Positions 1 to 48,749 of a DNA stretch of 64,000 nucleotides are shown piece after piece. Each line of letters begins with the position of its first letter. The stretch's first letter is position 1. The DNA is from Victivallales bacterium (GTDB taxonomy: Bacteria; Verrucomicrobiota; Lentisphaeria; Oligosphaerales; Oligosphaeraceae): assembly GCA_017554445.1 (NCBI GenBank), contig JAFZIJ010000081.1, forward strand, positions 1 to 64,000, read 5' to 3'. Under the pieces are notes generated by a model. It saw only the letters and a list, made by a program, of their open reading frames with translations. It was not told the DNA's origin and made no database searches. Made by a program: the position numbers and the translations under genes.

Positions 1-3000
1 GCGGTCATGGCGGATGAATTGCTGACATGGCATACGTCCAAGGCGGCGGCGTTCGAAGCCGCCGCGGCGAGTGACAAACTGGTGCTCATGGTTGGTGGAC
101 GCGACACCTGCATGAACACGAACTACTTCCGCAACACGGTCTGCGAGACGGCAGACATCAAGGCGACGCTGCTGGCAGGATACGAACTGTGGTACACCAA
201 TGTGGACACGTCATCGGAAAGCAGTCAATACCGAAGCGGGTTGGGCAACACGCTGCCATTCATAGCGATCATCGACCCAGTACAAGACAACCGATTGAAA
301 GGCCACGGCGGCCCCATGTCAATTACCGATGCGAGAATCTTCTTCGATCCCTGCACGCCAATATTCAGCCTGTCTGAATACACTGTTTATACAACCGGCA
401 CGACACAGATGCTGGAGCTTTCCACTCTCAGGGGCGGACTCGACATCCGTTATCGCTTTGACGATACGGCACCGACGATATCCGACATGCTTTACACGGA
501 GGCAATCCCGCTGACGGCGACAACGACCGTCTCCGCCCGCGCCTTCGAGAACGGGGAGCCCGTCAGCACCACGGAGACGATGACCTTCACCTTCCAGGAG
601 CAAGTGGCGACTCCCGTGATCAACAGGCCGCCGAACGGCTATTGTTTCCTCCCCTATAATGCCACGGCGACATGCGCGACGCCTGGTGCGACGATACGTT
701 ACCGTTTGGACAACTACATACCCTCAGCCAGCAGCCTCGTTCTTCCCGCCGAGGGCGTGTCTATAACCGCATATACACCTTTTATCGTCGTGGCCTTCAA
801 GGATGGCATGAAGGCTTCAGACTATGCTTTCACATATTTGGATGTTGTGAATGATATTGACGGAGCGTCGGCGGTCGTCACCGGAGACGTGCAAGTTGGA
901 TCGCCATCCCGTTCCACATCTTGGCTCGTCCAGAACAGCACCTACAACAGCGCACCCTCCGCTTTGCAATCCGGCGACATTTCATCTGGCAGCTCCTCTA
1001 TCATGGCCGCCAAAGTCAACGGCCCCGGCAGATTGTCATTCTGCTGGCGGGCATCGACGGAAGATCGGTACCGCGCCTCTCTTTCCTTATATATTGACGG
1101 TGATAATATGGCCTCCATTTACGGGTCAGACAACTGGGGACAAAAGGAATTTACAATCACAGGTTCAGGCGACCATGTTCTTGTCTGGACATATTATAAA
1201 TACAGTAACTTCTCTGGTAGCGGCGGATACGCATGGGTCGATGACATCGTCTGGACGCCAATAGATGCCGATACGCTTTTATCCATCGCCATTGATGGTG
1301 CGGCGAGCATCGCAAGTGGTTCCACGGAGTCATACACTTGTACGGCGACATGGGGTGACGATTCGCAGACGACAGTCACTCCGACATGGAGTCTTTCCTC
1401 TACAAACTATGCTTCTGTCGATGCAACAGGCAAGGTGACGAACAAGAATACAACCGGTGTGGACCAGACTGTGACGTTGAATGCAGTCTATACACATAAT
1501 GGCGTGACGGAAACGGCTTCCAAGATCATAACATTGACAAAACGGTCTTTGATATCAATCGCCGTCGACGGTCCAGATTACATCGACAGCGGTGCTTCCG
1601 CAACTTATTCATGTACGGCAACTTGGAGTGACGGGGAGACTACGGAGGTGAGACCAACTTGGGATCTCAATTCATGGACTTATGCTAATATCAACACCAA
1701 TGGCAGGGTGGTAAATCAGAATACGACAGAGAAAGACCAGACCGTGACATTGACTGCTGCATATACATTCAACGGCGTAAGTAAAACAGTGACGAAAAAT
1801 GTAACGCTGAAGAAACGCGAATTGCAGTCCATTACCATCAACGGAATGGATACAATATATGCCGGAGATACTGTAACATATTCCTGCTCGGCTAGTTGGA
1901 GTGACAGAACGACAACCGTAGTCATACCCGCATGGAGTCTTTCCTCCACTCAATACGCGTCCGTTGACGCCGATGGCAAAGTGACGCACAGGAATATGAC
2001 GGATAAAGACCAAACCGTAACACTGACTGCAAGCTATACGGTTGGCGATGTAACAAAGACGGCGACGAAAGTCATCACGCTTGCGAAACGGACGCTGACA
2101 TACCTCGCTATCAACGGCGATTCTACGATTTCCAGCGGCTCCTCGGCGACCTATACTGGTACGGCGACATGGAGCGACGGGGCGACTACGACAGTCACGC
2201 CGACATGGAGCCTTTCTAATTCGGCAATTGCCTCGGTTGACACAACGGGCAAGGTCACGAACAAGAACACGACAGACTCTGACTATAACGTGACGTTGAC
2301 TGCAACTTATACACAGGACGGCATTACGAAGACAGCTTCAAAAACCATTACGCTTGTAAGGCGTACTCTGGCGTCCATTGCCATCAATGGAAACAATACA
2401 ATTTCCAGCGGTGGAAAGGAAAATTATACGTGCACCGCGACATGGAGCGACGGGGCGACTACTACGGTGACACCGACATGGAGTCTTTCTTCTTCTGAAT
2501 ATGCCTCCATTGACGCAGAAGGCAAAATGACGAACAAGAATACAACGGAGACGGAAAAGGAAGTGACGTTAAAAGCAAGTTATGAGTATGGAAGCATAAC
2601 GAAAACGGCGAGCAAAGTTGTCACACTATCGAAGCGTCTCCCCGCATCCATGACGATTGTCGGCGACGATACGATTTCAAACGGCAGTATTTTGGAATAT
2701 GTCTGCATGGTCACATGGAGCGACGAAACGGTGTCACGTGTCACGCCGGACTGGAGTCTCTCCTCAACTGACTACGCTTCCGTTGACGTAAATGGAAGAG
2801 TGCGGAATCTGAATTCAACGGACAATGACCAATCCGTTACGCTGACCGCAAACTTTTCCTTCAGCGGCGTTACAAAAACAGCTTCCAAAACCATAACGTT
2901 GGCAAAACGGATATTGGTGTCGATTGACATCGAGGGAGATGATACAATTTCTGTTGGTGGTATGGTGGCATATATATGCAAGGCGAAATGGGGGTATGGA

Positions 3001-6000
3001 GGAACCACGGAAGTTACGCCAACTTGGAGTGTTTCCAATACGGATTTCGCTTCTGTTGACGCAGCAGGCAAGGTGACAAATCGAAACACGACGGCGTATG
3101 ACCATGCGGTGATGCTGGCCGCTACCTATACATATGACGGTGTTACGAAGACAGCCTCAAAGAACATCACGTTGACGAAACGGACGCTTGTATCAATCGC
3201 CATTGAAGGTAGTGATATGATTCCAAGCGGCGGTGTCGTGGCTTATACCTGCAAGGCAACTTGGGACGACGCGGATACCACAGCGGTTACGCCGACATGG
3301 ACTCTTTCTTCCACAACATATGCCTCTATTGATGCGAATGGTTGGTTGAAGAACATGAATTCGACACCTACGGAGCAGACGGTGTCGTTGACAGCGAATT
3401 ACACTGTTGGCGATGTGACAAAGACGGCTACGAAAATCGTCACGCTTGCGAAGCGGACACTCGCATCCATATCTGTCAACGGTGATGACATTATTCCCAG
3501 CTGCGGTATTTCGACGTACATTTGTACCGCAACATGGAATATAGGAGAAAGTACCACGGTCATACCGACGTGGAGCCTTTCCTCCACAAATTATGCCTCC
3601 GTTGGAACTGACGGCAAAGTAATAAACAAGAATGCGACGGACAATGACCAGACCGTGACACTGACCGCGAGTTATACGGTTGGCGACGTGACAAAGACGG
3701 CTACGAAAGTCGTCACGCTAGCGAAACGGACGCTGACAGACATCGCCATTGACGGCGACACGGTCATCCCCACAGGCGGCACTGCAACCTACACGTGCAC
3801 GGCTACTTGGAGCTATGGCGACTCTACTGCCATTACACCGGCATGGAGTCTTTCCTCTACGACTTATGCTTCTGTTGACGTTGCCGGCAAGATTGTGAAC
3901 AAGAACACGACGGACAATGACCAGACCGTGACGCTGACCGCCAGCTGCACGGTTGGCGATGTGACAAAGACGGCCACGAAAGTCATCACGCTTGCGAAGA
4001 GGACTCTGACGGACATCGCCATTGACGGCGATATGACGATTCCCACTGGCGGAGTTGCAAATTACGTATGCACGGCTACTTGGAGCTATGGCGAAGCCAC
4101 GACGGTCACGCCGACGTGGTCAGTTGCTCCGACGACCTATGCTTCTGTGAGCACGGCGGGAGCCGTGACGAACCAGAACACGACGACGGCAGACCAGACG
4201 GTGACGCTGACCGCCAGCTACACGCTTGATGGAACGACGAAGACAGCTACGAAGAGTATCACATTGGCGAAGAAGACGCTAGTAGCCATCGCCATCGCAG
4301 GCGACGCGACCATCGCGACAGCCAGTAGCGCAACTTATACATGTACGGCTACTTGGAGCTATGGCGACTCCACGGCGGTTACGCCGACGTGGAGTCTTTC
4401 CGCTACGACTTATGCCTCCGTCGATGCTGACGGCAAGGTGGTGAACAAGAACACGACGGATGAAGACAAGACCGTGACCTTGACCGCCAGCTACAAGGTT
4501 GGCGATGTGACAAAGACAGCGACAAAAGACATAAAGTTGTCGAAACGTACATTGCAAAACATTGTAATCGATGGTGATACGACGATTCCCACTGGCGGAT
4601 TTGCAAGCTACACATGCACGGCGATATGGAGCTATGGAGATCCCACGACAGCCACACCGGCATGGACTCTTTCCAACACAACCTACGCCTCCGTTGATGC
4701 AACGGGCAAGGTGATGAACAAAAATACGACGGGTGAAGACCAGACGGTGACGCTGAACGCGACCTTCACGAGCGGCGATATTACCCAAACATCGGCAAAA
4801 GACATCAAGCTTGCGAAGCGGACGTTGGAAGGCATCACGATCGACGGTGTCTCCAGAATCGCCAGCGGCGAGGCTTCAACTTATTCCTGCTCAGTGACAT
4901 GGAGCGACGGCACGACATCGAAGGTTAAGCCGGAGTGGAGCCTTTTAGACAGTCCCTATGCCTCCGTTGACGTGGACGGCAAGGTGACGAACAAGAATAC
5001 GACAGGAGAAGACAAATCGGTGATGCTTGTCGCGAGCTATGTGTTTGGCGATGTGACGAAGAAGGCACAAACGAATATAATCCTTTCAAAGCGGACGTTG
5101 TCTGAACTATCCATTGCCGGTGATGGCATCATTCCCAGTGGTGGTGCGGCGACATACGTCTGCATCGCTACTTGGAGCGATGGCGAACAAAGCAATGTCG
5201 TACCGACGTGGAGCCTTTCATCCACAAAATATGCTACCGTTGATGCTGACGGCAAGGTGACAAACAAGAATACGACGCTCGAAGACCAGACACTGACGTT
5301 GACGGCCGCCTACACGTTTGGCGATGTGACAAAGACGGCATCCAAGACCATTGTGTTGACAAATCGTTCGCTTGTATCCGTCTCCATTGCAGGGGATGAT
5401 GTGATTCCGAGCGGCGGCGTGGCAACCTACGTCTGCACGGCGACATGGAGCGACGGCACGACGTCAACGGCGACGGCGGCATGGAGTATTGCGCCGGCGG
5501 TTTACGTTTCAGTTGATGCCACGGGCAAAGTGACGAACCGCAATACGACGGCGACGGACCAGACGGTGACGTTGACCGCAAGCTATGAAGCCGGAAATGT
5601 GACGAAGACAACAACGAAAATCATCACGCTTGAGAAGCGCTCTTTGGAGAACATCGTCATTGACGGCGATGCGACGATTGCCACCGGCGGAACAGCAAGT
5701 TACACAAGCACGGCTGTTTGGAGCTATGGCGATTCGACAGCCATTACACCGACATGGAGCCTTTCATCCACTAATTACGCATCCGTTGACGCCACGGGCA
5801 AGGTGACGAACAAAAATGCGACGGACAATGACCAGACGGTGACGCTGACAGCGAGCTACACGGTCGGCAACGTGACAAAGACAGCCACAAAAGTCATTAC
5901 ATTGTCGAAACGTACGCTGACGGAGATTGTCATTGAAGGCATCGTGACAATCGCCAGCGGCGAAACAGCAAACTACACGTGCAAGGCGACATGGAGCTAT

Positions 6001-9000
6001 GGCGATTCGACTGCCATCACGCCGACATGGAGCCTTACCTCAACGACTTACGCCTCCGTTGACGCCACGGGCAAGGTGACGAACAAGAATGCGACGGACA
6101 ATGACCAGACGGTGATACTGACCGCAAGCTATACGGTTGGCGACGTGACAAAGACATCTTCAAAAGTCATCACGCTTGCTAAGCGAACACTGACGGATAT
6201 CGCCATTGACGGCGACACGACCATTCCCACTGGCGGCGCTGCAAACTATACGTGTACAGCGACTTGGAGCTATGGCGACTCTGCGGCTGCTGTTCCTGTA
6301 TGGAGTCTTTCCGCTACGACTTATGCCTCCGTTGATGCTGACGGCAAGGTGGTGAACAAGAATTCGACGGACAATGACCAGACGGTGACGTTGATGGCGA
6401 GCTATACGGTCGGCAATGTGACGAAGACGGCTACGAAAGCCATCACGCTTGCGCAACGGACGCTGATGGATATTGCCATAGACGGCGACGCGACAATTGC
6501 CAGTGGCGGCGTCGCAAGCTACGTATGCACGGCGACTTGGAGCAGTGGCGATCCTACGGAGGTCACACCGACGTGGAGCCTTTCCGCTACGACTTATGCT
6601 TCCGTTGATGCAAACGGCAAAGTTTCAAATAAGAATGCGGCAGACGAAGACCAGACGGTGACGTTGACCGCAAGCTACAAAGTCGGCGATGTGACAAAGA
6701 CAGCGATAAAAGTCATAACGCTAGCGAAACGGACATTGGAAAACATCGCCATTAACGGCGACTCGGTAATTCCCACCGGAGGATTTGCCACGTACACGTG
6801 TACCGCGTCTTGGAGCGACGGCGATCCTACGGCGGTCATGCCGAATTGGAGTCTATCCTCAACGACTTATGCAACCATTGATCCTGACGGCAAGATTGTG
6901 AACAAGAACACGACGGATGAAGATCAGGCCGTTACGCTTTCTGCAAGCTATACAGTCGGCGATGTGACGAAGACTGCATCCAAAGTCGTCACGCTTGCGA
7001 AACGGTTGCTGACGGAGATCGCCATTGACGGTGACACGGTCATTCCCACTGGCGGAACTGCAACCTACACGTGTACGGCAACTTGGAGCTATGGCGACTC
7101 TACTGCCATTACGCCGGCATGGAGCCTTTCCGCTACGACTTATGCCTCCGTTGACACTGACGGCAAGGTGACGAACAAGAATATGACAAACGACGACCAG
7201 ACCGTAACGCTGAAAGCAAGCTACACGGTCGGCGACGTGACAAAGACAGCTGCGAAAGTCATCACATTGTCGAAGCGGTCTTTGGAAAACATAGCTATTG
7301 ACGGCGACGCGACGATTCCCACTGGCGGAACCGCAAGTTACATTTGCACGGCGACATGGAGCTGTGGTGATCCCACGGTGTTCACGCCGGCATGGAGCCT
7401 TTCCGCTACGACTTATGCCTCCGTTGACGCTGACGGCAAGGTGACGAACAAGAATATGACAAACGACGACCAGACCGTAACGCTGAAAGCAAGCTACACG
7501 GTCGGCGACGTGACAAAGACGGCTACGAAAGTCATCACGCTTGCGAAACGGATGCTTAAGGACATTGCCATTGACGGTGACGCAACGATTGCCAGTGGCG
7601 GAACAGCAAGCTACATATGCACGGCGACATGGAGCAGTGGCGATTCCACAGCGGTCAAGCCGACATGGAGCCTTTCTTCCGCAAATTACGCCTCCGTTGA
7701 CGCTGACGGCAAAATTACAAATAAGAATACGACGAATGAAGACCAGGCGGTGACACTTACAGCTAGCTACACAGTCGGCAACGTGACCAAGACAGCCACA
7801 AAAGTCATCACGTTGTCGAAACGCACGCTGACGGACATTGCCATCAACGGCGACACGACGATTGCCACCGGCGGAACTGCAACCTACACGTGCACAGCTA
7901 CTTGGAGCTATGGTGATCCCATGGCGGTCACGCCGGCATGGAGCCTTTCGTCTAGCGCCTATGCTTCCATTGACGCTGACGGCAAGGTAACGAACAAAAA
8001 TGCGACGGACAATGACCAAACCGTGACGCTTAAGGTCAGCTACACAGTCGGCGACGTGACCAAGACAGCGACAAAAGTCATCACATTGTCGAAACGCACA
8101 CTGACGGACATCGCCATCAACGGCGATGCGGCAATTGCCACCGACGGAACTGCAACCTACACGTGCACGGCAACTTGGAGCTATGGCGATTCCACGGCGG
8201 TCACGCCAGCATGGGGCCTTTCCTCCATGACCTATGCTTCCATAGACGCTGGCGGCAAGGTGACGAACAAGAATGCATCGGACAATGACCAGACGGTGAC
8301 ATTGACTGCGAGCCTCACGGTCGGCGACGTGACGAAGACGGCGACAAAAGTCATCACGCTGTTGAAGCGGTCGCTGACCGACATTATCATCGCTGGAGAC
8401 GATAACATCCCCACTGGCGGAGTTGCAAGTTACATTTGCAGGGCAACTTGGAGCTATGGCGACTCTACCGCCATTACGCCGGCGTGGAGCCTTTCCTCCA
8501 CGACCTACGCTTCCATTGACGCTGACGGCAAGGTGACGAACAAGAATGCGACGGACAATGACCAGACCGTCACATTGATGGCGAGCTGCACAGTCGGCGA
8601 CGTGACGAAGACAGCGACAAAAGTCATCACGTTGTCGAAGCGGACGTTGATGGACATTACCATTGCCGGTGACATGACGATTGCCAGTGGCGGTACTGCC
8701 AGCTATACGTGTAAAGCAACTTGGAGCTATGGCGACTCTACCGCTATTACGCCGATGTGGAGTCTTTCCGCTACGACATATGCCTCCATTGACGCTGACG
8801 GAAAGATTGCGAACAAGAACACGACTGACAATGACCAGACGGTGACACTGGCTGCAAGCTACACGGTCGGCGATGTGATGAAAACTGCGACAAAGGAGAT
8901 CATTCTTGCAAAGCGTACGCTTGTTGAACTTTCCATTATAGGCGACGGCATCATTCCCAGTGGTGGTGCATCAACCTATATTTGCACGGCGGCATGGAGC

Positions 9001-12000
9001 GACGGCGAGCATACCAATATTGTGCCGGCATGGAGTCTTTCCGCCACAAATTATGCCATCGTTGACGCTGACGGAAAAGTGACAAACAAGAACACCACGG
9101 ACAATGACCAGACCGTGACGCTTATGGCAAGCTACACATTTGGCGATGTGACGAAGACGGCATCCAGGACCATTACCTTGACGAATCGCACGCTTGTATC
9201 CATCTCCATTGCGGGGGATGATGTGATTCCAAGCGGCGGCGTGGCAACCTACGTCTGCACGGCGACATGGAGCGACGGCGCGACGTCAGCCGCGACGGCG
9301 GCGTGGAGTCTTGAGCCAGCGACATACGGTTCAGTTGATGCATTGGGCAAGGTGACGAACCGCAATACGACGGCGACAGACCAGACGGTGACATTGACCG
9401 CGAGCTATGAAGCCGGAAAAGTGACGAAGACAGCGACAAAAGTCATCACGCTGTCGAAACGGACGATGGTGGACATTGTCATTACCGGCGACTCGGCCAT
9501 TGCCACTGGCGGATCTGCAAGTTACACGTGCACGGCAACTTGGAGCTATGGTGATGCGACCGCCATTACACCGACATGGAGACTGTCCTCCACCAATTAC
9601 GCCTCCGTTGACGCCACGGGCAAGGTGACGAACAGGAATGCAACGGACAATGACCAGACGGTGACGCTGACGGCCAGCTACACGGTCGGCGACGTGACAA
9701 AGACAGCCACAAAAGACATCACGTTGTCGAAACGCAAGCTGACGGACATTGCCATCGACGGAGACGCCAACATCCCCACTGGTGGAACAGCAAGCTACAT
9801 TTGCACGGCGACATGGAGCAATGGCGATCCCGCGGCGGTCACGCCGACGTGGAGCCTTTCTTCCACTAATTACGCCTCCGTTGACGCAACGGGCAAGGTG
9901 ACGAACAAGAATGCGACGGACAAAGATCAGACGGTGACTCTGACTGCGACCTATATGTCAAGTGATGTGACCAAGACAGCGACAAAAGTCATCACGCTGT
10001 CGAAGCGGACTCTGACGGCTATCGCCATCACCGGCGAAACGACGATTGCCAGTGGAAAGGTTGCAAGCTACGCTTGTACTGCAACTTGGAGCTATGGCGA
10101 CACCACGGCGGTCACGCCGACATGGAGCCTTTCCGCGACCACACATGCCTCTGTGGACGCTGACGGCAAAGTTGCGAATAAGAATACGACGAATGAAGAC
10201 CAGGCGGTGACGCTTACAGCCAACTACACAGTCGGCAATGTGACCAAGACGGCGACAAAAGTCATCACGCTGTCGAAACGGACGCTGACGGAAATTGTCA
10301 TTGATGGTATCGCGACGATTGCCAGCGGCGAAACTGTAAACTATACGTGTACTGCAACTTGGAGCTATGGCGATTCCACGGCGGTCACGCCGGCATGGAG
10401 CCTTTCCTCCACGACCTACGCTTCCATAGACGCTGACGGCAAAGTGACCAACAAGAATGCGACGGACAATGACCAGGCGGTGACGCTTGCGGCCACCTGC
10501 ACAGTCGGCGACGTGACCAAGACGGCGACAAAAGTCATCACGCTGTCGAAACGCACGCTTACGGAAATTGTTATCGCCGGAGATGATATCATCCCCACTG
10601 GCGGAGTTGCAAGCTATACGTGCACAGCGAGTTGGAGCTATGGCGATTCCACGGCGGTCACGCCGACATGGAGCCTTTCCTCCACGGCCTACGCTTCCAT
10701 TGATGCTGACGGAAAGGTGACGAACCGAAACACGACAGACGAAGACCAGACGGTCACATTGAATGCCAGTTATGAAGCCGGAAATGCAACGAAGGCGAAT
10801 TCAATAGTCATAACGCTTGCTAAACGGACATTGGAATCCGTTGCCGTCGAAGGTGATGAGATTATTCCTACTGGTGGAGTTGCAACCTACTTATGTACAG
10901 CGACATGGAGCTATGGAGATTCCTCGGCGGCCATACCGACATGGACTCTTTCCAACACGACCTATGCCTCTGTTGACGTAACAGGCAAGGTGACAAACAA
11001 GAACACGACGGACGAAGACCAGACGGTGCTGTTGACGGCAAGTTACACAGTCGGTGATGTGACGAAGACCGCGACGAAAGTCATCACGTTGTCAAAACGC
11101 ATGCTGACAGACATCACCATCAACGGCAATACGGCGATTGTCAGCGGTGGATTTGTAAGCTACACATGCACGGCGACATGGAGCAGTGGCGAATCCACAA
11201 CGATTACGCCGACGTGGAGTCTTTCCTCCACCAATTTTGCAAACGTTGACATGATTGGCAACGTGACAAACACGAATACGACAGGTGAAGACCAGATGGT
11301 GACGCTTACGGCCAGCTACTCGGTCGGCGATGTGACGAAGACCGCGACAAAGGAGATTGTTCTTGCAAAGCGTACGCTTGTTGAACTATCTATTGCCGGC
11401 GACGGCATCATTCCCAGTGGAAGTGCTGTAAGCTACACGTGCACGGCTACTTGGAGCGATGGCGAACAAAGCAATGTCACACCGACGTGGAGCCTTTCAT
11501 CCACCAATTATGCCTCCGTTGACGCTGACGGCAAGGTGACGAATCGGAATACGACGGACGAAGACCAGACGCTGATGTTGACGGCCAGCTATAGGTTTGG
11601 CGATGCGACAAAGACAGCATCCAAGACTATTACCTTGACGAATCGTACGCTTGTATCTATTTCCATTGCAGGCAATGACACGATCCCAAGCGGCGGCGTG
11701 GCAACCTACGTCTGCACGGCGACATGGAGCGACGGCGCGACGTCAGCCGCTACGGCGGCTTGGAGTATTGAGCCAGCGGCATACGCTTCAGTTGATGCAT
11801 CGGGCAGGGTGACAAACCGCAATACGACGGCGACGGACCAGACGGTGACATTGACCGCAAGCTACGAGGCGGGAAATGTGACGAAGACCGCGACAAAAGT
11901 CATCACGCTGTCGAAACGGACGATAATGGACATTGTCATCACAGGCGACTCGACAATCGCCAGTGGCGAAATGGCAACCTACGTCTGCACAGCGACTTGG

Positions 12001-13428: not shown

Positions 13429-13484
13429 TCTCATATTAAGAAAAACTGTTCCATAAATATTTTAGAAAAATCGTGAGAATCATC

Positions 13485-16400
13485 ATGACTTCCATCAGAA
13501 AGAAACATTGGATTGCCTGTTTTCTGTTCTTCAGCATCATTTTCACTGCCATTATGCATGCAGCAGAAGTCAGCGAAAACGAGATACTTGCGGCGGCACG
13601 GAAATGGATTGCGGACAATGCCATGTTCCAGGCTGATCTGCCAAACGCCGTTCCTGAAAAGGCCGTGCAGATGGCGGATTTCGAAGGGAAGCCCATGCCG
13701 TTGTGGCGTGTCGATCTGCAGCCGACTGGTTATCTGGTCATGTCGGCGGACGACACGCTTCCGCCGGTCGTGGCTTTTGGAACAAAATCGTCCTTCGACA
13801 TGCCGCCCGCTCATCCTCTGCCCGCCATGTTGAACCGCCAAGGCGAGATTTTCCAAGATGAACTAAAGAAGCCGAAGACCCGCGGAAATGAACTGGCAGC
13901 GGAGAACCAGTCGCGTTGGAACGCGTTGCTCGGCCGTACACGGGCGGAATCCGTCACGCCTTCGAAAATCATCACAGAGCCTTTGGTAACAACGATTTGG
14001 GATCAATCCGCGCCATACGACTACATCTGTCCGACAGATGGCAGATATCTCCATCGTGGCATCACTGGATGTGTTCCGACCGCGTTTTCGCAAATCCTGA
14101 AATTCCATGAATGGCCGCCGCGAGGGGAGGGGAGCATCAGCTACACAGACGATCAAGGCAATGTGAAAGGTGAACTTCGGGCGGATTATTCCTTCCCTTA
14201 TGAATGGGAGTTGATGCGAGATGATCAAACAGACAACTGGCATAATTACACATTTGCTTATCCTGAAAGAAACATCGACCGATCCGACTGGGCGGTTGCC
14301 CGCATGATGATGGAAATGGGAGCCTGTGCACAAGTGGACTATGAAGAGGACGCTACAGGCGGATACAGCTATTATTTCCAATTTTTGGTCACATCGAACC
14401 TTTGGTATAAGGATACTGTTGAATACGGGGATACCAGATCACAGTATATCGGCTATGTCCCACAGGAAACGCTGTATACACGGATACGTGAAGACATGGT
14501 TGCAGGACGGCCGTCGATATTGACATATACTGGCCACGCTTTTGTAGGAGATGGTCTTGGCACGATGGGAGGCCTCGACTACTATCATATAAATTACGGT
14601 TGGAGTGGATACCACAATGGCTGGTATCTGTTGACGGATGGCTATAAATCAACGGTCATCGTCTCCGCCACGACAGGCATTGAGCCTAGACCCGTTGCGA
14701 TGTTCAAGCCGATGTCCGTCGAGCAACCTGCCGCCTTCACGCTGGAATGGGACTTCCCGAAACGGTTGAAGGCGGAGGCCTTCCGCTTGACGAAAATCAC
14801 CGGCGACCACAGCTTTGTGGTCAGTTCCACCATCGATGGAACCGCCAGAAGCTTCAATGTCAGCGGCCAGTCAGGCACTGCGACCTACACGCTGGAGGCG
14901 ATGATCGGCGGAAACTGGCAGGAAGTCTCCGAAGGCGTCACCGTCACCGTCAAAGCCAATCCGACCCCTATGCTTGAACTGATGGTCGACGACGAGTTGA
15001 ACAGCGTGGCCGGCCGGCCGTTCTCGACGTTGGTGGTGGCCAACAACACATTGAAGAGCCTGTCCGTTTCATGCAGCCGTCCCGACATGCTTGCAAACTC
15101 ATCCATATCCGTCACTGGCAGCGGAATTAGCCGTACCATCCGCCTGACGCCGAATAAAAATCTGGCTGGCAACGCGGTGCTTTATCTGACGGGTGTCGAT
15201 ACGGCAGGAAACACAGCCAAGAAGACGGTTCTCCTGCGCGTTCTGGAAAACGAAGTGGTCTGGCAGACAAGCTATATCGACGCGTTTACGAACGCCTTGC
15301 TGAAAGGCAAGATGGTTCTTCTGGTGGTTGGTAGAGAAAAAGACGCCAGTACGGCCTCCTTCCTTAACAAAGTCTGTGAAGACGAAGACATCAAGGCCAA
15401 TCTGCTGGCAAACTTCGAGCTCTGGTTTTCAGATGTGGATATTTCCTCGGATCATGAATATTATGTTTCTGATTTGGGCTATACGTTTCCGTGCTTTGCC
15501 ATTTTTGATCCGAGTGCGCCGGAAAAGAGTCTCCGCTCACACGCCGGCCCTATGACCGTCGCGGAAGCGTCGCTGTTCCTGGACACGCTTCTGCCATATT
15601 TCAGTTTGCAGGATGAGATATTGGCCGCCGGCAGGACGCATGACCTTGAATTGTCCGTCCTCGACAGAAATGCCGAAATCCGTTATCGCCTGGATGGCAA
15701 GGAACCGACTGCCAATGACACGCTTTACGTATTGCCAATTCCTCTGTCGGCGCCGACAACTGTCTCCGCCCGCGCATTCAAGTACGGGCTGCCTGTCAGC
15801 GACACGGTCACAAAATCCTACACGTTCCTGCCTCAAGTCGCCACGCCGATACTTAATGTGGAAGGGCAGAAATACTTCTCCGACCTCTTCCTTGTGACGG
15901 CGTACTGTTCCACGACTGGCGCGACAGTACGATACACGACTGATGGGACCATTCCGACGGCGACGAGCCCTGTGTTCCCTGCGGGCGATTTGCTTGTCAC
16001 GGAAAATACATCCCTTGCGGTACGGGCGTTTATGAACGGCATGAAGCCTTCGGAATGCGTATCCTGTGTTCTTTACAATGTAGGGGATGTCATCAAAGGC
16101 GACGGCGTTGAAATCGACGGTGAAGAGACGGACTGGTTTTTGCAGAAAAAGACCTATAACAGCGCGCCGTCCGCCATGCAATCAAAAGCCATTGGTGATT
16201 ATGATGTATCGACGATGGCTGTAAAAGCCATGGGAAGCGGGACAATTAAATTCCATTGGAAAGTCTCCTGCGAGGCTGATTATGACTATTTGGCATTTTA
16301 CATTGACAATGAGCTGAAAGCGATGATTACCGGAAATACGAACTGGGCTCAGAAGACGTTCAGTATCACAGGCGATGGCGAGCATACGCTAGTCTGGTGC

Positions 16401-19400
16401 TATATCAAAGATGTATGGAATGCGGAAGGCAGCGACTGTGGCTGGGTCGATGACATTGTCTGGACGCCGACGGTTGGCAAGACACTGGTTTCCATCAATA
16501 TCAACGGTTCCGCGTCCATCGCCAGCGGAGATACGGAGACGTATGTCTGTATGGCGAAATGGAACGACGGGACGACATCGCCCGTGACGCCGACGTGGAA
16601 TCTTTCATCCTCGCAGTATGCCAACCTTTCCAATGGCAAGGTGACGAACAAGAACACGACGGAAAAGGAGCAGACGGTGACGTTGAACGCCACCTATACG
16701 TCTGGCGGTGTGACAAAGACGGCTTCGAAGAGCATTACGCTGGCCAAACGCGGTGTGGCGTCCATCGTTATCATGGGAGATGCGTCGATCGCCAATGGCG
16801 CACGCGCAAACTATGTCTGCAAAGCGACTTGGAGCGATGGCGAAACGAAAAACATCAAGCCTGAATGGAGTCTATCCTCCACGCAATACGCCTCCGTCGA
16901 CGCGGATGGAAATGTGACGAACCGAAATACGACGGATAAAGACCAGACCGTTACGTTGACGGCGACCTACACGTCCGACGGCGTGACAAAGACGGTTTCC
17001 GTCGTCATCACGCTCTTGAAACGGACGCTTGTATCCATCTCCATTACAGGTGACAGCGAGATTGCGGGCGGTGAAACGTCGCCATATGTCTGTACGGCGA
17101 TATGGAGCGATGGCACTGCAATTTCCGTGATACCGACATGGAGCCTTTCTTCGACACAGCATGCATCCGTCGATGCGAACGGAAATGTGACAAACAGGAA
17201 CGCGACGGATAAGGATCAGACGGTGACGTTGAACGCCAGTTACACATCCGGCGGTGTCGTGGTCACTGCGTCCAAGAACATCAAATTGACGAATCGCTAT
17301 TTCCTGTCCATATCTATCGATGGCGACAACGTGATTTCATCGGGTGCCACGGCGGCATTTACTTGTGTGGCGACATGGAGCGACGGCGCGATGACGACTG
17401 TTCAGCCAACATGGACTCTTTCCTCCTTCCAGTACGCCTCTCTTGATGAAGACGGCAAAGTGACGAACAAAAACGCGACGGATACGGACCAAACCGTAAC
17501 GCTGAATGCCAGTTTCACATCTGGAGGAACGACCAAGACGGATTCCAGAGTCATCACGTTGGCGAGGCGGACGTTGAAGGACATTACCGTCAACGGAGAC
17601 GAAAAGGTCGTCAATTTCGGAACGGCGACGTATGTCTGCACAGCGTGGTGGAGTGTTGGCGAGCCGACGGAAGTGGCGGCGCAATGGCAACTTTCATCAA
17701 CGGACTATGCCACCGTTGATGAAGACGGCAAGGTGACGAACCAGAACGTGACGGACACAGACCAGAAGGTGACATTGACAGCGAACTACATACATGTCGG
17801 CGTGATGAAGACGGCCTCGAAAGACATCACGTTGGAGAAACGCTATCTGTCCTCCGTCGCCATTGAAGGCGACAGCATTATTCCCAAAGGAGCGATGGCG
17901 ACCTACACCTGCACGGCGATATGGAGCGACGGCGCGACTTCCGCCGTTACTGCGTCGTGGAGCCTTTCCGACACACAATACGCCACCGTTAGCTCGACTG
18001 GCAAAGTCGTGAACAAAAACACGTTGGAAACAGACCAGACGGTGACGCTGAACGCCAGCTATACGGTGGACGGCGTGACGAAGACGGCCTCCAAAGCCAT
18101 TACGCTGACCAACCGTTCGCTCGTATCCATTTCAATTTCAGGTGATAGCGTGATCCCAAGCGCTGCAGAGGCATCATATGAATGCACGGCGACATGGAGC
18201 GACGGCGCGACGAGCAAGGTGTCGCCGACATGGAAGATCTCTACCAATACCGCCGCCGTAGTTGACATGGCTGGCAAGGTTCTGAACAAGAACGCGACGG
18301 ATACAAACCAGACGGTGACATTGACTGCGGTTTGCCAGGCCGGCGCAGTGACGAAGACAGCGACCAAAGATATAACATTAAAGAAACGCATCTTTGAATC
18401 CATCTCCATAAAAGGCGACAATGCGATTCCGGCAGGAGACACCGCATCCTATGTCTGCATTGCAAATTGGAGCGTCGGCGAACCTACCGTGGTGACGGCT
18501 GCGTGGTCACTGTCTTCTATGACATACGCATACGTCGATACGCTTGGCAAATTGATGAACCGAAACACGACAGAAGATGATCAAACGGTGATGCTGACCG
18601 CCAGCCATACCCATGACGGCGTGACAAAGACAGATAGCAAGACAATTGTCCTGACAAAACGCTTATTGCTGGATATCACCATCACTGGCAACGCGACAAT
18701 CGGCAGCGGAACATCTGTAACTTACGTTTGCGATGCGAGTTGGAGCGACGGTGCGACCACCGCGGTCAAGGCCGTATGGAGCCTTGACTCCACGGAATTC
18801 GCCGCCGTTGACGCAAACGGCAAGGTGATGAACAAGAACACGATGGCGGACGACCAGAAGGTGACGTTGACGGCTACATTCACTTCCGGCGGCGAGACGA
18901 AGACTGAGTCGAAAGCCATTACGCTTGCGAAACGGACGCTGGCGGAGCTGTCCATCCTCGGCGACAACGCGATCTCGAATGGCTTCACGTCGGCCTATGA
19001 ATGCAAGGCGATATGGAGCGACGGCACGACAACGCGGGTCACGCCGAAATGGTCGCTTACCTCCACATTGCACGCTTCGCTTGATTCGACCGGCAGAGTG
19101 ACGAACAAGAATACGACATCTGAAAACCAGACGGTGACGCTAGTCGCGGACTTCCAGTCCGGCGACGTGACGAAAACGGCCACGAAATCGATCACGATGG
19201 TGAAGCGGACGTTGAAGAGCATCGCGATCAACGGCGTCGCCACGATCGCCAGCGGCGAGGCTTCAAGCTATTCCTGTATCGCGACTTGGAGCGACGACAC
19301 GACGTCGGAGGTCATGGCGGAATGGAGCCTTGACTCCACGGAGTTCGCCGTGTTGGAGGCTGGCGGCCGCGTGGTGAACAAAAACACGACTGACACGGAT

Positions 19401-20987
19401 GCGACGGTGGCGCTGACGGCGACTTTCGCCTACGGCGATGTGACGAAGACGGCCTTCAGGAGCATCAGGCTTGTGAAACGGACGCTGCTGTCAATCGCCA
19501 TCGCAGGCGATGACGCGATCCCAAACGCCGGATTCGCAACATACAGCTGCACACCGACTTGGAGCGATGGCGCGACGGATCCCGTGACACCGGCATGGTC
19601 GCTTTCCTCTACCCAGTACGCCTCTGTGGATGCGGAGGGAAAAGTCATGAATTTGAACACAACGGACACGGATCAGACGGTGAAGCTGACCGCTTCCTAC
19701 ACGTTCGCCGGCGCGACGCGGACGGCCACCATGACCATCAAGCTTGCGAAACGGACGATCGTGTCCATCGCCGTCGATGGAAAAGCAACCATACCGAATA
19801 ATATGACAGAAACCTATTCCTGCACGGCGACATGGAGCGACGGCACGACGGCGGCGGTGTCGCCGACATGGAGTCTTTCCTCCACGCGGTATTCATCTCT
19901 TGCGGCGGGCGGCAAGGTGACGAACCAGAATACATCCACAGCCGAACAGACGGTCACGCTGACGGCAAGTTACACATTCGGCGGCGTGACGCTGACGGCA
20001 GAAAAGACGATTGCCCTTACGCAAAAAGCAGTGGAATCCATCGCCATAAACGGCAAATCGAACATCGCCGGCGGTATGACGGCGTCCTATGCCTGCGTGG
20101 CGACATGGAGCGACGGGAATACATCCAATATCACGCCGGTATGGAGCCTTTCCTCCACGGAACATGCCTCCGTCACCGTGACAGGAAAAGTGACGAACCA
20201 GAATTCGACGGCAACCGTGCAGGAAGTGACGCTGATTGCAACTTATGTGGTTGGTGACAAGACATATACGAATGAAAAGGTCATTACGTTGGCCAGCCGT
20301 TCGCTGAACGGGATCACCATTGAAGGCGAAACGGTCGTCGCCACGAAATCTTCGGCAACATACGTCTGCAAGGCAACGTGGAATGTCGGCGATCCGACAT
20401 CTGTTTCGCCAGTCTGGAGCCTTTCTTCAAACGAATACGCCTCCGTTGACGCTAACTGCAAGGTAACGAATAAAAATATGACGATGGAAGACCAGACAGT
20501 GGCATTGACCGCCGTTTTCACAGTCGGCGACGTGACGAAGACGGCCTCCATCGACATTACGTTGAAACGCGTTTCCGAACTGGTTCAGATTCTGGAACTG
20601 CTTCCGGGATGGAATTTTGTGACATTGACGAAACAATTGAAAAACAATCCTGACGGCGTGCAGAAGTTCCTGGCGCTGAAGCCGATGAAGCTGTCGGCTG
20701 ATAATGGCGCCATTGTCATGTGCGATGACGGTGCATCTCTAAAGGCCGGAATCGGCTACTGGGTGTATAGCAGATCCAGGCAGTTGGTCGAACTCGTGCA
20801 GGATACGGAAGCACCTGTGTCTCAGGTAAATCTGAAACATGGCTGGAATTTCGTCGGGTTGACGGAGAATGCGGCATGGCCAGATTCCGCCATGGCAATC
20901 TGGAAGTGGCGGAATGGCCGCTTCATTCCTGTCGCGAAGGAAGATTTGCGTGTCGGATATTCTTACTGGGTTTATATAAACTACTGA
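13485..20987 (+). CDS. Secreted C10 (streptopain-like) cysteine protease with 15 Big-like repeats
   Basis: 2500 residues. I chose ATG 13485 over GTG 13473 because a GTGAG sequence lies at SD distance and the protein then starts with a clean signal peptide (1-26, basic MTSIRKK then a hydrophobic core). A Spi-like propeptide follows (about 28-130). The C10 protease spans about 160-405: nucleophile C196 in GITGCVPTAFSQILKFHEWP, H351 in TGHAFVGDG, then YYHINYGW. After it come an Ig-like linker, a thioredoxin-like domain (about 590-715) with no CxxC, two CHB_HEX_C-like modules, a lectin-like module, 15 Big-like repeats and the C-terminal GWN...YWVY module. Known C10 enzymes (SpeB, interpain) are secreted proteases with an N-terminal propeptide, so a secreted, self-activated protease on a long stalk is a reasonable inference. 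It is the middle of three paralogues; no terminator is seen between them. Confidence 0.88.
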   Translation: MTSIRKKHWIACFLFFSIIFTAIMHAAEVSENEILAAARKWIADNAMFQADLPNAVPEKAVQMADFEGKPMPLWRVDLQPTGYLVMSADDTLPPVVAFGTKSSFDMPPAHPLPAMLNRQGEIFQDELKKPKTRGNELAAENQSRWNALLGRTRAESVTPSKIITEPLVTTIWDQSAPYDYICPTDGRYLHRGITGCVPTAFSQILKFHEWPPRGEGSISYTDDQGNVKGELRADYSFPYEWELMRDDQTDNWHNYTFAYPERNIDRSDWAVARMMMEMGACAQVDYEEDATGGYSYYFQFLVTSNLWYKDTVEYGDTRSQYIGYVPQETLYTRIREDMVAGRPSILTYTGHAFVGDGLGTMGGLDYYHINYGWSGYHNGWYLLTDGYKSTVIVSATTGIEPRPVAMFKPMSVEQPAAFTLEWDFPKRLKAEAFRLTKITGDHSFVVSSTIDGTARSFNVSGQSGTATYTLEAMIGGNWQEVSEGVTVTVKANPTPMLELMVDDELNSVAGRPFSTLVVANNTLKSLSVSCSRPDMLANSSISVTGSGISRTIRLTPNKNLAGNAVLYLTGVDTAGNTAKKTVLLRVLENEVVWQTSYIDAFTNALLKGKMVLLVVGREKDASTASFLNKVCEDEDIKANLLANFELWFSDVDISSDHEYYVSDLGYTFPCFAIFDPSAPEKSLRSHAGPMTVAEASLFLDTLLPYFSLQDEILAAGRTHDLELSVLDRNAEIRYRLDGKEPTANDTLYVLPIPLSAPTTVSARAFKYGLPVSDTVTKSYTFLPQVATPILNVEGQKYFSDLFLVTAYCSTTGATVRYTTDGTIPTATSPVFPAGDLLVTENTSLAVRAFMNGMKPSECVSCVLYNVGDVIKGDGVEIDGEETDWFLQKKTYNSAPSAMQSKAIGDYDVSTMAVKAMGSGTIKFHWKVSCEADYDYLAFYIDNELKAMITGNTNWAQKTFSITGDGEHTLVWCYIKDVWNAEGSDCGWVDDIVWTPTVGKTLVSININGSASIASGDTETYVCMAKWNDGTTSPVTPTWNLSSSQYANLSNGKVTNKNTTEKEQTVTLNATYTSGGVTKTASKSITLAKRGVASIVIMGDASIANGARANYVCKATWSDGETKNIKPEWSLSSTQYASVDADGNVTNRNTTDKDQTVTLTATYTSDGVTKTVSVVITLLKRTLVSISITGDSEIAGGETSPYVCTAIWSDGTAISVIPTWSLSSTQHASVDANGNVTNRNATDKDQTVTLNASYTSGGVVVTASKNIKLTNRYFLSISIDGDNVISSGATAAFTCVATWSDGAMTTVQPTWTLSSFQYASLDEDGKVTNKNATDTDQTVTLNASFTSGGTTKTDSRVITLARRTLKDITVNGDEKVVNFGTATYVCTAWWSVGEPTEVAAQWQLSSTDYATVDEDGKVTNQNVTDTDQKVTLTANYIHVGVMKTASKDITLEKRYLSSVAIEGDSIIPKGAMATYTCTAIWSDGATSAVTASWSLSDTQYATVSSTGKVVNKNTLETDQTVTLNASYTVDGVTKTASKAITLTNRSLVSISISGDSVIPSAAEASYECTATWSDGATSKVSPTWKISTNTAAVVDMAGKVLNKNATDTNQTVTLTAVCQAGAVTKTATKDITLKKRIFESISIKGDNAIPAGDTASYVCIANWSVGEPTVVTAAWSLSSMTYAYVDTLGKLMNRNTTEDDQTVMLTASHTHDGVTKTDSKTIVLTKRLLLDITITGNATIGSGTSVTYVCDASWSDGATTAVKAVWSLDSTEFAAVDANGKVMNKNTMADDQKVTLTATFTSGGETKTESKAITLAKRTLAELSILGDNAISNGFTSAYECKAIWSDGTTTRVTPKWSLTSTLHASLDSTGRVTNKNTTSENQTVTLVADFQSGDVTKTATKSITMVKRTLKSIAINGVATIASGEASSYSCIATWSDDTTSEVMAEWSLDSTEFAVLEAGGRVVNKNTTDTDATVALTATFAYGDVTKTAFRSIRLVKRTLLSIAIAGDDAIPNAGFATYSCTPTWSDGATDPVTPAWSLSSTQYASVDAEGKVMNLNTTDTDQTVKLTASYTFAGATRTATMTIKLAKRTIVSIAVDGKATIPNNMTETYSCTATWSDGTTAAVSPTWSLSSTRYSSLAAGGKVTNQNTSTAEQTVTLTASYTFGGVTLTAEKTIALTQKAVESIAINGKSNIAGGMTASYACVATWSDGNTSNITPVWSLSSTEHASVTVTGKVTNQNSTATVQEVTLIATYVVGDKTYTNEKVITLASRSLNGITIEGETVVATKSSATYVCKATWNVGDPTSVSPVWSLSSNEYASVDANCKVTNKNMTMEDQTVALTAVFTVGDVTKTASIDITLKRVSELVQILELLPGWNFVTLTKQLKNNPDGVQKFLALKPMKLSADNGAIVMCDDGASLKAGIGYWVYSRSRQLVELVQDTEAPVSQVNLKHGWNFVGLTENAAWPDSAMAIWKWRNGRFIPVAKEDLRVGYSYWVYINY
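16485..20576 (+). repeat. 15 tandem coding Big-like repeats
   Basis: The first unit is 90 codons (one residue short at the YANLSNGKV segment). The next 14 are exactly 91 codons: unit 2 begins at 16755 and unit 15 at 20304, which is 13 x 273 bp. The units are visibly more diverged from each other than those in the 43-unit array, suggesting an older or less homogenised array. Confidence 0.93.
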
Positions 20988-21039
20988 TCAAATAAACGAA
21001 ACAATCACAAACTGAATAACTCTCAAATAGGAAAGAACC

Positions 21040-24000
21040 ATGCAACCTATCGGAAGAAAACTCTGTTCTATCGTCTGTTTATTAGTTGCATTTTCATTTC
21101 CTGTTTTACATGCAACGGAAGTCAGTGAGAACGAGATATTGGCGGCGGCAAAAAAATGGATTGCCACCAATGCTGTCTTTCTTTCCGAACTGCCGGACGC
21201 AGTTCCGGCAAAAGTTGTGCACTTGGCGGATTTCGAAGGGAAGGGCATGCCATTGTGGCGAGTCGATCTCAAGCCGACTGGATATCTCATCATGTCTGCG
21301 GACGATACGCTGCCGCCAGTCGTGGCTTTTGATACAAAATCGTCCTTCAACATGCCGGCGGGGCATCCGTTACATGCCATGCTTAAACGTCAAGGCGAGA
21401 TTTTTCAAAATGAACTGTCTAAACCGCAGATGCGCGGAGATGAATTGGCGTTGCAGAACCGGATGCGCTGGAACACGCTCCTCGGCCGTACGCGGGCAGA
21501 TGACGTCATGCCGTCAACGATTGTCACGCAACCACTTCTGGCGACAGCATGGCATCAAGATTCGCCATATAACTTTTTCTGCCCGTCAGGAGACACTTAT
21601 GGTGAACGTGCGATAACGGGATGCGTCGCAGTGGCGGTCGCACAACTGTTGAAATACCATGAATGGCCACCATCCGGCAAAGGCGTGAAGACTTTTTCGG
21701 ACAATGAGAGCGACATTCAAGCCACAATGAAGGCGGACTATTCCTTCCCGTATGACTGGAGTTTGATGACAGACGAATATGCGGCGGGAATGGACGAGAA
21801 AAACTATGGGGGGACAGAACTTTCTGTTGCCAGGCTGGTCATGGAGGCAAGTGTACTCGTTGAGGCGGATTACGATCTAGACAACACAACTGCCTTTTCC
21901 CATGACGTACATCAGCTGATGGCCCAGTATCTTGGCTATTCTGACTCCGCAGTTTATGGCGATTCTCGCCAAGGGTATATTGGATATATATCCCAGTCGA
22001 CGCTGTATTCCAGAATTCGTGCGGACATAGCGGCAGGGTACCCAGCCATTGTGGGATTCGAAGGGCATGCGTTCATCGCGGATGGTCTGGGCACCATGGA
22101 GGGTCAGGACTATTACCATTTCAATTATGGTTGGGGCGGTTTGCATGATGGCTGGTATTTGCTGACGGACGGTTTTGAGAACGATGTCGTCATCTGTGCT
22201 ACGACGAACATTCGGCCTTCTCCTGTCGCCGTCTTCAAACCGATGTCATGCGAGCAGACCTCCTCCTTCACGTTGTCATGGGACTTCCCGAAACGTCTTT
22301 CGGCGCAGGCATTCCGTTTGACGAAGACAACAGGTACGCGCGCGTACGAAATCATTAGTGATTCCATAGATGGAACAGCCCGAAGCTACAATTTGACGGG
22401 GCAGTCTGGAACAGCCGCTTACACATTGGAGGCGAAGGTAAACGGAAGCTGGCAGGCCGTTTCGGACAGTATGACGGTGACAGTCAAGACGGATCCCGCC
22501 GCCATGCTGGAACTGATAGTTGATGACAATTTGAAGAGTATCGGGAGCAGTCCGGTAACGACGATGATCACCGCAAACCATTCATTGGCAAACCTTACGG
22601 TGACAAGCAGCCGACCGGACATCCTGTCATCAAGCGGCATTTCCGTGACTGGCAGCGGCGCTTCCCGTACCGTGACGATGACACCCGTTCAAGGCAAAAT
22701 CGGCAATGTGCTTCTTTATTTGACCGCGGTCGATACCGCAGGCAATACCGTCAAGAAGACGGTGCTTTTGCGCGTCATGGAGGATGAACCGCTGGTCTGG
22801 CATACAGTCAAGGAGGAAGCGTTTTCTGAAGCAATGGAAAACGATAAAGTTGTCTTGATGTTGGCAGGAATCGATGGCGATGTAAACACCAGTAACTTCC
22901 GCAATAAAATCTGCGAGACAAGAGACATCAAGGCAAATCTTTTAGAAAACTATGTATTATGGTATGTCGATGCCAATAATTCCCATGATTATATCATGTA
23001 TGCAGATGGTCTCGGTCATTACCTGCCATTCATTGCCATCATCAATCCCGCTGATTCTGAAAATCGATTGAGCGGATATGGTGGTCCGGTAAATGTGGAG
23101 GAAGCACGTCAATTTTTGGATCCGGATTCTCCGTTTTTCAACTTGAGTGACATCGAAAGCTATACCATCGGTGTTGCCCAGGAACTGACAATGGCAACGA
23201 TTCACGATGGGCTTGAAATCCATTACCGTTTGGATGGCAACGTTCCTGGCATAAACGACATGTTATATTCGGGCCCCGTTTCCTTGGCGGCGCCTACCAT
23301 CGTTTCGGCTCGCGCTTTCAAAAACGGAGAACCAGTCGGTTATATTGTGACCAAGACTTATTCATTCTTGGAAAAGGTCGCCACGCCAGTCATAGAGTTC
23401 AGTACAAAGGGCGGCTACTTCTTTGGAACTTGCGTTGTGACAGCGACATGTGACACCGAAGGGGCGACCATTCGCTATATGACGACTAATATAATTCCTT
23501 CGATGAACAGCCCCGTACTGCCGAGCGAAGGCTTGACTCTAGACGCATATTCATATATCGTGGTCAAAGCTTTCAAAGACGGCATGACAGAATCCGATTA
23601 CGTCTATAAGTCAGTGGATGTTCTTGAGGAATTGGCCGATGCCCAGAATATCGTCACAGGTGACGTAAAAGTGGGTACACCATCACAATCCGCTGCCTGG
23701 TTTTCTCAATCCGACACAACCTATAGCAGTCCTACAGCCATGCAGGCATGCCGAACGGCAGATGTCGGTGATTCGAAAATGGTTGCGAAAGTTAGCGGCA
23801 TCGGAAAGCTAACCTTTTATTGGAAAGCAACTTCCGAATCAAATAACAGCCATCTTTACTTTTTAATAGATGGCGATTTTCAGAACGGCATCACCAATTC
23901 CTCCTGGACTCGGAAGGAATATCGAATTTCCGAATATGGAGAGCATTATCTGGAATGGTATTATGACAAGAAATACAGAAACGAAGACGCCAGTGGATGG

Positions 24001-25002
24001 GTCGATGACATTGTCTGGACGCCGTTAGACGCCGATTCGCTTACATCCGTCGTCATTGATGGTACGACAATGATTGCCTGCGGCGATGTGAAATCCTACA
24101 CATGCACAGCGGTTTGGAATGACGGTGACATGACGGTTGTCACGCCGACATGGAGCCTTTCCGATACAACCCACGCCACCGTTGATGCAGATGGCAAGGT
24201 GACAAATCAGAATATGACGGAGGCGGACCAGACGGTGACGCTGACGACAAGCTACGCATTTGGCAGCGTGACAAAAACAGCGACCAAAGTCATCACGCTT
24301 TCAAGACGGACACTGACGGACATTGCCATTGACGGCGATGGCATGATTGCTGTGGAAGGATCTGCAAGTTACACGTGCTCCGCAACTTGGAGCTATGGTG
24401 ACTCCACGCAGGTGTTGCCGACGTGGAGCCTTTCCTCCACCGCTTACGCGACTGTTGATGTGGATGGCAATGTGATGAATCTGAACACGACGGAGAGAGA
24501 CCAGACGGTGACATTGACGGCAAGTTATATGGTCGGAGACGATACGAAGACAGCGGCCAAAGAGATTACGCTGAAAGATCATCCATTCCCACGGCAAATG
24601 CTGAAACTGCATCCAGGCTGGAACATGGTGACGTTGACAAAGCCGTTGAAAAACAGGCTGGAGAGCGTACAGAAGTTCTTGGCATTGAGGCCAATTTCGT
24701 TTGATGCGGAAGTCAATTCCATGGTTGTATGCAATGACGCGACGTCCATAAAGATCGGAATCGGTTATTGGGTGTTCAGCAGGCAGAGTCAGACGGTTGA
24801 ACTCGTGCAGGATGCGGAACAGCCTGTGTTCCAAGTAGAAATGAAGCAGGGCTGGAATTTCATTGGAATGACGGAAGACGCGGCATGGACGGAATTCGCC
24901 ACGATAATCTGGGGCTGGCAAAACGGCCGCTTTATTCCAATGAATAATATGGAAAACTTACAGGTTGGAAAAGCGTATTGGGTGTATAGCGATAATGATT
25001 AA
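21040..25002 (+). CDS. Secreted C10 (streptopain-like) cysteine protease with 2 Big-like repeats
   Basis: 1320 residues; ATG 21040 has an AGGAAAG SD 7 nt upstream. Signal peptide 1-25 (cleavage near VLHA-TEV), Spi-like propeptide about 27-130, C10 protease about 160-395 with C195 (ITGCVAVAVAQLLKYHEWP) and H343 (GHAFIADG), followed by YYHFNYGWGG and DGWYLLTDGF. Ig-like linker, thioredoxin-like domain beginning near WHTVKEEAF (no CxxC), two CHB_HEX_C-like modules, lectin-like module ending WVDDIVWTP, two 91-residue Big-like repeats and the C-terminal GWNMV/GWNFIG module ending AYWVYSDND. Architecture matches the 15-repeat paralogue except for repeat number, so this is the minimal form of the family. 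Its stop faces the convergent sorting locus 64 bp away; I see no clear hairpin in that gap. Confidence 0.9.
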   Translation: MQPIGRKLCSIVCLLVAFSFPVLHATEVSENEILAAAKKWIATNAVFLSELPDAVPAKVVHLADFEGKGMPLWRVDLKPTGYLIMSADDTLPPVVAFDTKSSFNMPAGHPLHAMLKRQGEIFQNELSKPQMRGDELALQNRMRWNTLLGRTRADDVMPSTIVTQPLLATAWHQDSPYNFFCPSGDTYGERAITGCVAVAVAQLLKYHEWPPSGKGVKTFSDNESDIQATMKADYSFPYDWSLMTDEYAAGMDEKNYGGTELSVARLVMEASVLVEADYDLDNTTAFSHDVHQLMAQYLGYSDSAVYGDSRQGYIGYISQSTLYSRIRADIAAGYPAIVGFEGHAFIADGLGTMEGQDYYHFNYGWGGLHDGWYLLTDGFENDVVICATTNIRPSPVAVFKPMSCEQTSSFTLSWDFPKRLSAQAFRLTKTTGTRAYEIISDSIDGTARSYNLTGQSGTAAYTLEAKVNGSWQAVSDSMTVTVKTDPAAMLELIVDDNLKSIGSSPVTTMITANHSLANLTVTSSRPDILSSSGISVTGSGASRTVTMTPVQGKIGNVLLYLTAVDTAGNTVKKTVLLRVMEDEPLVWHTVKEEAFSEAMENDKVVLMLAGIDGDVNTSNFRNKICETRDIKANLLENYVLWYVDANNSHDYIMYADGLGHYLPFIAIINPADSENRLSGYGGPVNVEEARQFLDPDSPFFNLSDIESYTIGVAQELTMATIHDGLEIHYRLDGNVPGINDMLYSGPVSLAAPTIVSARAFKNGEPVGYIVTKTYSFLEKVATPVIEFSTKGGYFFGTCVVTATCDTEGATIRYMTTNIIPSMNSPVLPSEGLTLDAYSYIVVKAFKDGMTESDYVYKSVDVLEELADAQNIVTGDVKVGTPSQSAAWFSQSDTTYSSPTAMQACRTADVGDSKMVAKVSGIGKLTFYWKATSESNNSHLYFLIDGDFQNGITNSSWTRKEYRISEYGEHYLEWYYDKKYRNEDASGWVDDIVWTPLDADSLTSVVIDGTTMIACGDVKSYTCTAVWNDGDMTVVTPTWSLSDTTHATVDADGKVTNQNMTEADQTVTLTTSYAFGSVTKTATKVITLSRRTLTDIAIDGDGMIAVEGSASYTCSATWSYGDSTQVLPTWSLSSTAYATVDVDGNVMNLNTTERDQTVTLTASYMVGDDTKTAAKEITLKDHPFPRQMLKLHPGWNMVTLTKPLKNRLESVQKFLALRPISFDAEVNSMVVCNDATSIKIGIGYWVFSRQSQTVELVQDAEQPVFQVEMKQGWNFIGMTEDAAWTEFATIIWGWQNGRFIPMNNMENLQVGKAYWVYSDND
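24040..24585 (+). repeat. 2 tandem coding Big-like repeats
   Basis: Units start at 24040 and 24313, exactly 273 bp apart, with the same motif order as the other two arrays. Confidence 0.93.
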
Positions 25003-29275: not shown

Positions 29276-29571
29276 CTTAACAATCCTGTTTTGTCAAAAT
29301 ACTTCTGGTTAGCCATGACCCGAAATGAAAAGCTTCAGGTATTGCTTGCAAAACTGAGCTTCTCATTTTCGCTCCACAAATATTATAATATCATCTTATT
29401 AGCATGCCTTGGACTGCTTATGTCTTTATAGAGCAAAACAATTATGCCACCGCCAGAAGGCGGTGGCATATGATTTTCTCTTAGAAATCTTGATTCGGAA
29501 ATCGCTGACATAGATTCATAAGGCAATATGCCCGATGATTATGTCAACCGACTAGCCGAATCAAATCACCA
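29276..29571. other. Intergenic region upstream of the TPR gene
   Basis: 296 bp without a gene. It contains a 12-bp perfect hairpin at 29443-29470 and a longer imperfect inverted repeat at 29323-29338 / 29353-29369 (AAATGAAAAGCTTCAG against CTGAGCTTCTCATTTT) about 50-95 bp upstream of the TPR start. I cannot pick a confident promoter. Confidence 0.5.
29443..29470 (-). terminator. 12-bp hairpin, candidate terminator
   Basis: TATGCCACCGCC, loop AGAA, GGCGGTGGCATA: a perfect GC-rich stem followed on the - strand by TAATTGTTTTG. It lies about 100 bp past the stop of the PVPG-CTERM gene at 29572. The + strand side is also T-rich (TGATTTTCTCTT), so it may act in both directions. Confidence 0.6.
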
Positions 29572-36988: not shown

Positions 36989-37002
36989 GGTTACTCTCTG
37001 TT

Positions 37003-40480: not shown

Positions 40481-40482
40481 TT

Positions 40483-48721: not shown

Positions 48722-48749
48722 GGTTATTCCTTTGTGTTGGGGGATTATT

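Follow-up and report, generated by a model that had tools for sequence, protein, structure and literature searches.

The window analysed here covers the first 64 kb of C60, a contig of 98 kb in the 4.9-Mb assembly (234 contigs) of an uncultured, probably ruminal, Victivallales bacterium. It opens with three open reading frames lying head to tail on the + strand, with intergenic gaps of 44 and 52 bp. The first, A (1–13428), is open at the contig start and is represented by its C-terminal 4475 aa; B (13473–20987, 2504 aa) has its likely start at the ATG at 13485; C occupies 21040–25002 (1320 aa). In B and C a signal peptide is followed by a weak I69-type propeptide, a Peptidase C10 domain, a thioredoxin-like part, two CHB_HEX/Fn3-associated domains, a jelly-roll, a series of 91-aa aBig_2 repeats and a C-terminal GWN/GYW domain. 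Within the window, A has all of these modules from the thioredoxin-like part onward. Pfam matched Peptidase_C10, CHB_HEX_C_1/Fn3_assoc and aBig_2 and, weakly, Inhibitor_I69 and Thioredoxin_7. The middle part of the head occupies 10–1272 in A (assigned via its paralogues), 15252–16478 in B and 22786–24039 in C, all on the + strand; it contains thioredoxin-like as well as beta-sandwich regions, its MAM/CBM-type matches being of low TM-score, and its thioredoxin-like stretch is without CxxC. The initial annotation described three tandem C10-protease paralogues that share their modules and differ in repeat number (43, 15 and 2); a profile built from the repeats returned exactly these counts, and the three proteins do share one architecture.

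In a promoter/terminator scan, terminators were no commoner than in shuffled sequence. Functional partners upstream were considered and rejected, the conserved upstream genes encoding DUF2400 and NERD proteins with no obvious link to the trio. Elsewhere in the window, nine-base tandem repeats (TTCTGGATA and variants) occur between genes in up to 13 copies (37001–37164, 40480–40524 and 48746–48782), and two 96-bp direct repeats of 94% identity lie inside a gene (60465–60658).

The contig ends inside A, which is therefore truncated. The initial annotation had allowed that this first paralogue might lack the protease; its N-terminal part was found on contig C27 (bases 1–1863, − strand), with a readable signal peptide, as in B and C, and an intact C10 domain (C27:622–1227, − strand; Pfam E 2e-39, 137 bits). 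The C27 gene runs off base 1 of its contig, and, read as its reverse complement, C27 finishes with GCGGTCATG, the 9 bases that open the window; this 9-bp overlap is in frame and falls at the homologous place. In another genome of the same genus, G002, a single orthologous gene, X, lies between the genes of C27 and those found at 31–48 kb of the window, and a 681-aa protein on the C27 side is 98% identical there. Because X is flanked by genes of both contigs, we conclude that C27 and C60 are neighbours and that the join is real; A therefore does carry the protease. The two pieces of A were analysed separately. Loss of the protease from A is ruled out by the C10 domain and catalytic residues on C27, and an assembly artefact or chimera by the in-frame contig overlap together with the synteny bridge.

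The C10 domain of B (13998–14627, + strand; Pfam E 8e-35, 121 bits) has the catalytic Cys in GCVPTAFSQ, the His in GHAFVGDG, and NYGW; that of C (21550–22158, + strand; E 3e-41, 142 bits) also has its catalytic residues intact, and the GCV and GH/NYGW motifs are present in A, B and C alike. Among the heads compared, the catalytic Cys and His were kept in 16 of 16 and Asn-Tyr-Gly-Trp in 15 of 16. The nearest solved structures found by phmmer were the streptopain zymogen and interpain A. Matches of the propeptides of B and C to Inhibitor_I69 scored 23.5 and 21 bits, under the 25-bit cut-off. By their domain, A, B and C are members of peptidase family C10, and proteolytic activity is predicted for them. 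Genome-wide, Peptidase C10 matched four proteins: B, C, the C27 gene product and a giant protein of 6413 aa (C170:1507–20745), which carries a dockerin-like stretch. The gene for the giant is followed by one for a 3709-aa protein (C170:21114–32240), and both of these proteins end in the GWN/GYW domain.

The repeats are arranged as 43 units in A (1273–13008), 15 in B (16479–20573) and 2 in C (24037–24582), all on the + strand, so that the stalk lengths first proposed, about 3.9, 1.4 and 0.2 kaa, fit these numbers of 91-aa units. Each unit scores 105–144 bits against the profile, and nearly all of the 60 units keep to a register of exactly 91 aa, with almost no indels. Tandem Repeats Finder independently gave a 273-bp period in A with 71% matches. 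The array of A, at more than 11 kb, is an intact reading frame, and its longest exact repeat is 91 bp; its 43 units are the count in one assembly, in which a modest short-read miscount may be present. Mean DNA identity between units is 0.67 in A and 0.58 in B, with a maximum of 0.91. AlphaFold2 modelled the two repeats of C as well-formed Ig domains in series (pLDDT 93–98), for which the best PDB match by Foldseek was to the Big domains of Leptospira LigA (E 2e-11, ∼18% identity).

A tree places two genes as orthologues of B with support of 100: X, of 2599 aa with 16 repeats, and one in G004 that is interrupted by a contig break; in G004 this orthologue is the first gene after those of C27. 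B and X are the only orthologous pair in which repeats could be counted. Their numbers, 15 and 16, differ by one, but units 1–14 are in register: 13 of these units of B best match the same-numbered unit of X at the amino acid level, unit 8 being cut one residue out of register. Since the units inside B are only 48% identical in amino acids to one another, this matching order indicates that the array predates the species split and that its order has been kept. To judge from this alignment, the stalk of B is old and stable. Estimates of dN/dS between B and X, which are rough since dS nears saturation in the head, were ∼0.12 for the head and ∼0.23 for the stalk, pointing to purifying selection on both.

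A and C have a different history. Their heads are 70% identical to each other and 65% and 59% identical, respectively, to that of B, which by sequence makes them a separate paralogue pair at the locus; both are absent from the corresponding place in G002 and were either gained here or lost in the relatives. Units 10–40 of A are more alike than the others, with up to 91% DNA identity, and block copies (A15–17, A29–31 and A38–40) recur at lags of 9, 14 and 23 units. The block copies and the high identity point to a recently grown array in A beside a stable one in B; A alone appears to have expanded recently, by block duplication. The ‘natural series of stalk lengths’ first seen in the trio thus stands in so far as the number differs among the paralogues, but these are not three versions of one hypervariable gene.

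The C-terminal domain (13009–13425 in A, 20574–20984 in B and 24583–24999 in C, + strand) is made up of two GWN...GYWVY halves. It closes most of the proteins of the C10 relatives, and it has 17 matches in the own genome, non-protease proteins included, in most of which it lies at or within ∼35 residues of the C-terminus. At least three proteins of this genome (loci L105–L107) have it at an internal position, and it is therefore not a strict sorting tag. FGE-sulfatase-like modules follow it in one protein of this genome (L106, on contig C98) and in one of G004 (L042, C102:2026–8661), where the ORF ends inside the third such module. The predicted model of the domain was of low confidence, and a search of the PDB for the domain gave no convincing match.

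The proteins end in AYWVYYIHQ (A), SYWVYINY (B) and AYWVYSDND (C), and none of the three has a recognised anchor or sorting signal of the PEP-CTERM or T9SS kinds that were looked for: the exosortase (PEP-CTERM-like) motif, TM helix and basic tail are all wanting. For the T9SS sorting domain (TIGR04183/PF18962), C showed no NCBIfam match, in a scan that covered C alone of the three related C-termini, and B and C showed no Pfam sorting domain. A small exosortase locus lies directly after C (25067–30576, − strand). It encodes an EpsI-like protein, an exosortase (PF09721), a PrsT-like TPR protein and a single candidate substrate, which ends in PVPGLLLSMVIGGTAVAFSKKRKKA; the locus has a lower GC content (∼0.44–0.45) and is absent from the corresponding place in G002 (contig C68). 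Anchoring through this locus is ruled out by the C-termini of A, B and C and by its absence from G002. Of the ‘stalk’ of the initial annotation, the arrays of Ig-like repeats are confirmed, whereas their role as a stalk and display at the surface are presumed.

C10 proteins were found in 20 of the 29 genomes searched in the taxonomic family, in open frames of 496 to 6983 aa. Head and middle part together are complete in the own genus and in a single further one (g10), while a third (g8) has part of them. Between head and C-terminal domain, both conserved, the middle changes in kind: four aBig_2 units with FGE-sulfatase-like modules in one G004 protein (C102), LRR_5 arrays in another (C40) and in G024 (C90), other Ig-type domains in G017 (C63) and, in a further protein of G002 (C191), no rod at all. 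The enzyme head appears to be conserved and the presumed stalk exchangeable. These comparisons support a family with variable stalks, and the variation in length first proposed proves too narrow a description, for it extends beyond repeat number to the kind of rod.

We propose that A, B and C would be made as zymogens and act as secreted, possibly surface-held C10 cysteine proteases, in which the propeptide, protease, thioredoxin-like, Fn3-associated and jelly-roll modules would together make up a conserved working head. Between this head and the GWN/GYW domain, the aBig_2 repeats would stretch out as a rod of Ig domains; the GWN/GYW domain would most likely serve for docking to the surface of the cell or to its matrix, a role that is a guess from the position of the domain. 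If one Ig domain adds ∼4 nm of length, repeat number would set the reach of the protease at roughly 8, 60 and 170 nm in C, B and A, respectively. B would be the conserved core gene, with A and C as extra paralogues and the rod of A lengthened by block duplication. We consider this account as a whole, with anchoring presumed, about as likely as not. More tentatively, the wider set of relatives may represent a lineage-specific display system, in which one conserved C10 head and one conserved docking domain are combined with unrelated, exchangeable rods (2–43 Ig units, LRR_5, FGE-like or none), so that a single cell would present one protease at a number of fixed distances from its surface.

The rods could instead be adhesive, a reading that we consider rather doubtful. 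The Ig repeats would then be binding modules, making up a multivalent adhesin by which the enzyme is kept attached to a substrate, be it plant, mucin or another cell, and their number would tune avidity, not reach. Proteins of the LigA type bind host ligands through their Big_2-type repeats, so that the fold match to LigA favours binding, as do the CHB_HEX and jelly-roll/CBM-like matches in the head, which suggest contact with glycans. However, relatives replace the repeats with LRR_5, FGE-like modules or nothing while keeping the head, a pattern more in line with a spacer or exchangeable module than with a single dedicated ligand. It is less probable again that the proteases are cell-free, their repeats and C-terminal domain serving secretion, stability or matrix assembly instead of display on a stalk. 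C10 enzymes such as streptopain are released, and the search for a known cell anchor came up empty, both in keeping with a diffusible product; nevertheless, an extension of 43 domains would be costly for such an enzyme, and other giant proteins, too, carry the conserved C-terminal domain. Neutral drift by recombination, which would leave the 43 units of A functionally no different from the 2 of C, has in its favour the block duplications of A at lags of 9, 14 and 23 units, the count of 2 in C and the relative with no repeats at all, but is improbable given the 15 and 16 units of B and X kept in register across species at a dN/dS of ∼0.23 and the intact frame of an array of more than 11 kb in A.

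The three proteins can be set beside several known systems. The catalytic domain, with its Cys and His, is shared with the C10 family (streptopain, interpain A and Bfp of Bacteroides fragilis), as may be, to judge from a weak match below cut-off, an I69-type propeptide; to these A, B and C add the thioredoxin-like, Fn3-associated and jelly-roll modules, as many as 43 Ig repeats and a C-terminal domain of another kind. LigA and LigB of Leptospira, which are surface adhesins without a protease, have the same Ig-like fold class in series, although identity in the match is only ∼18% and the repeats of A, B and C are joined to a protease head. Porphyromonas C10 proteases bear a T9SS signal domain (PMC8861167).

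The closest concept is that of the Periscope Proteins (SasG, Rib, Sgo_0707 and CdrA), in which a functional domain is carried on an Ig-type rod of variable number, even over 40, with repeats of very high DNA identity whose number changes between strains (PMC8201768). A, B and C likewise place an N-terminal functional domain on tandem globular domains. Their repeats are, however, too divergent for that definition, the units of A averaging 67% DNA identity; the one countable orthologous pair, B and X, is nearly stable at 15 and 16; and A, B and C have a protease for a head and are without a known wall anchor. The open papers searched, whose incomplete coverage makes this a weak negative, held no description of a C10 protease on a variable stalk, and the open literature searched yielded no paper on C10 in Kiritimatiell*. 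The novelty claimed at the outset for a streptopain-type protease on a variable stalk therefore holds among those papers, but functional domains on Ig rods of variable length are already known (PMC8201768).

The locus brings into family C10 a lineage from a little-studied gut group, one whose C-terminal domain had gone unrecognised. If the proposed role of the rods holds, it would amount to a natural ruler experiment, in which a single cell has one protease in three versions that differ mainly in the length of their rods (2, 15 and 43 domains); together with the relatives that carry other rods, it would make the tuning of surface enzymes by reach testable.
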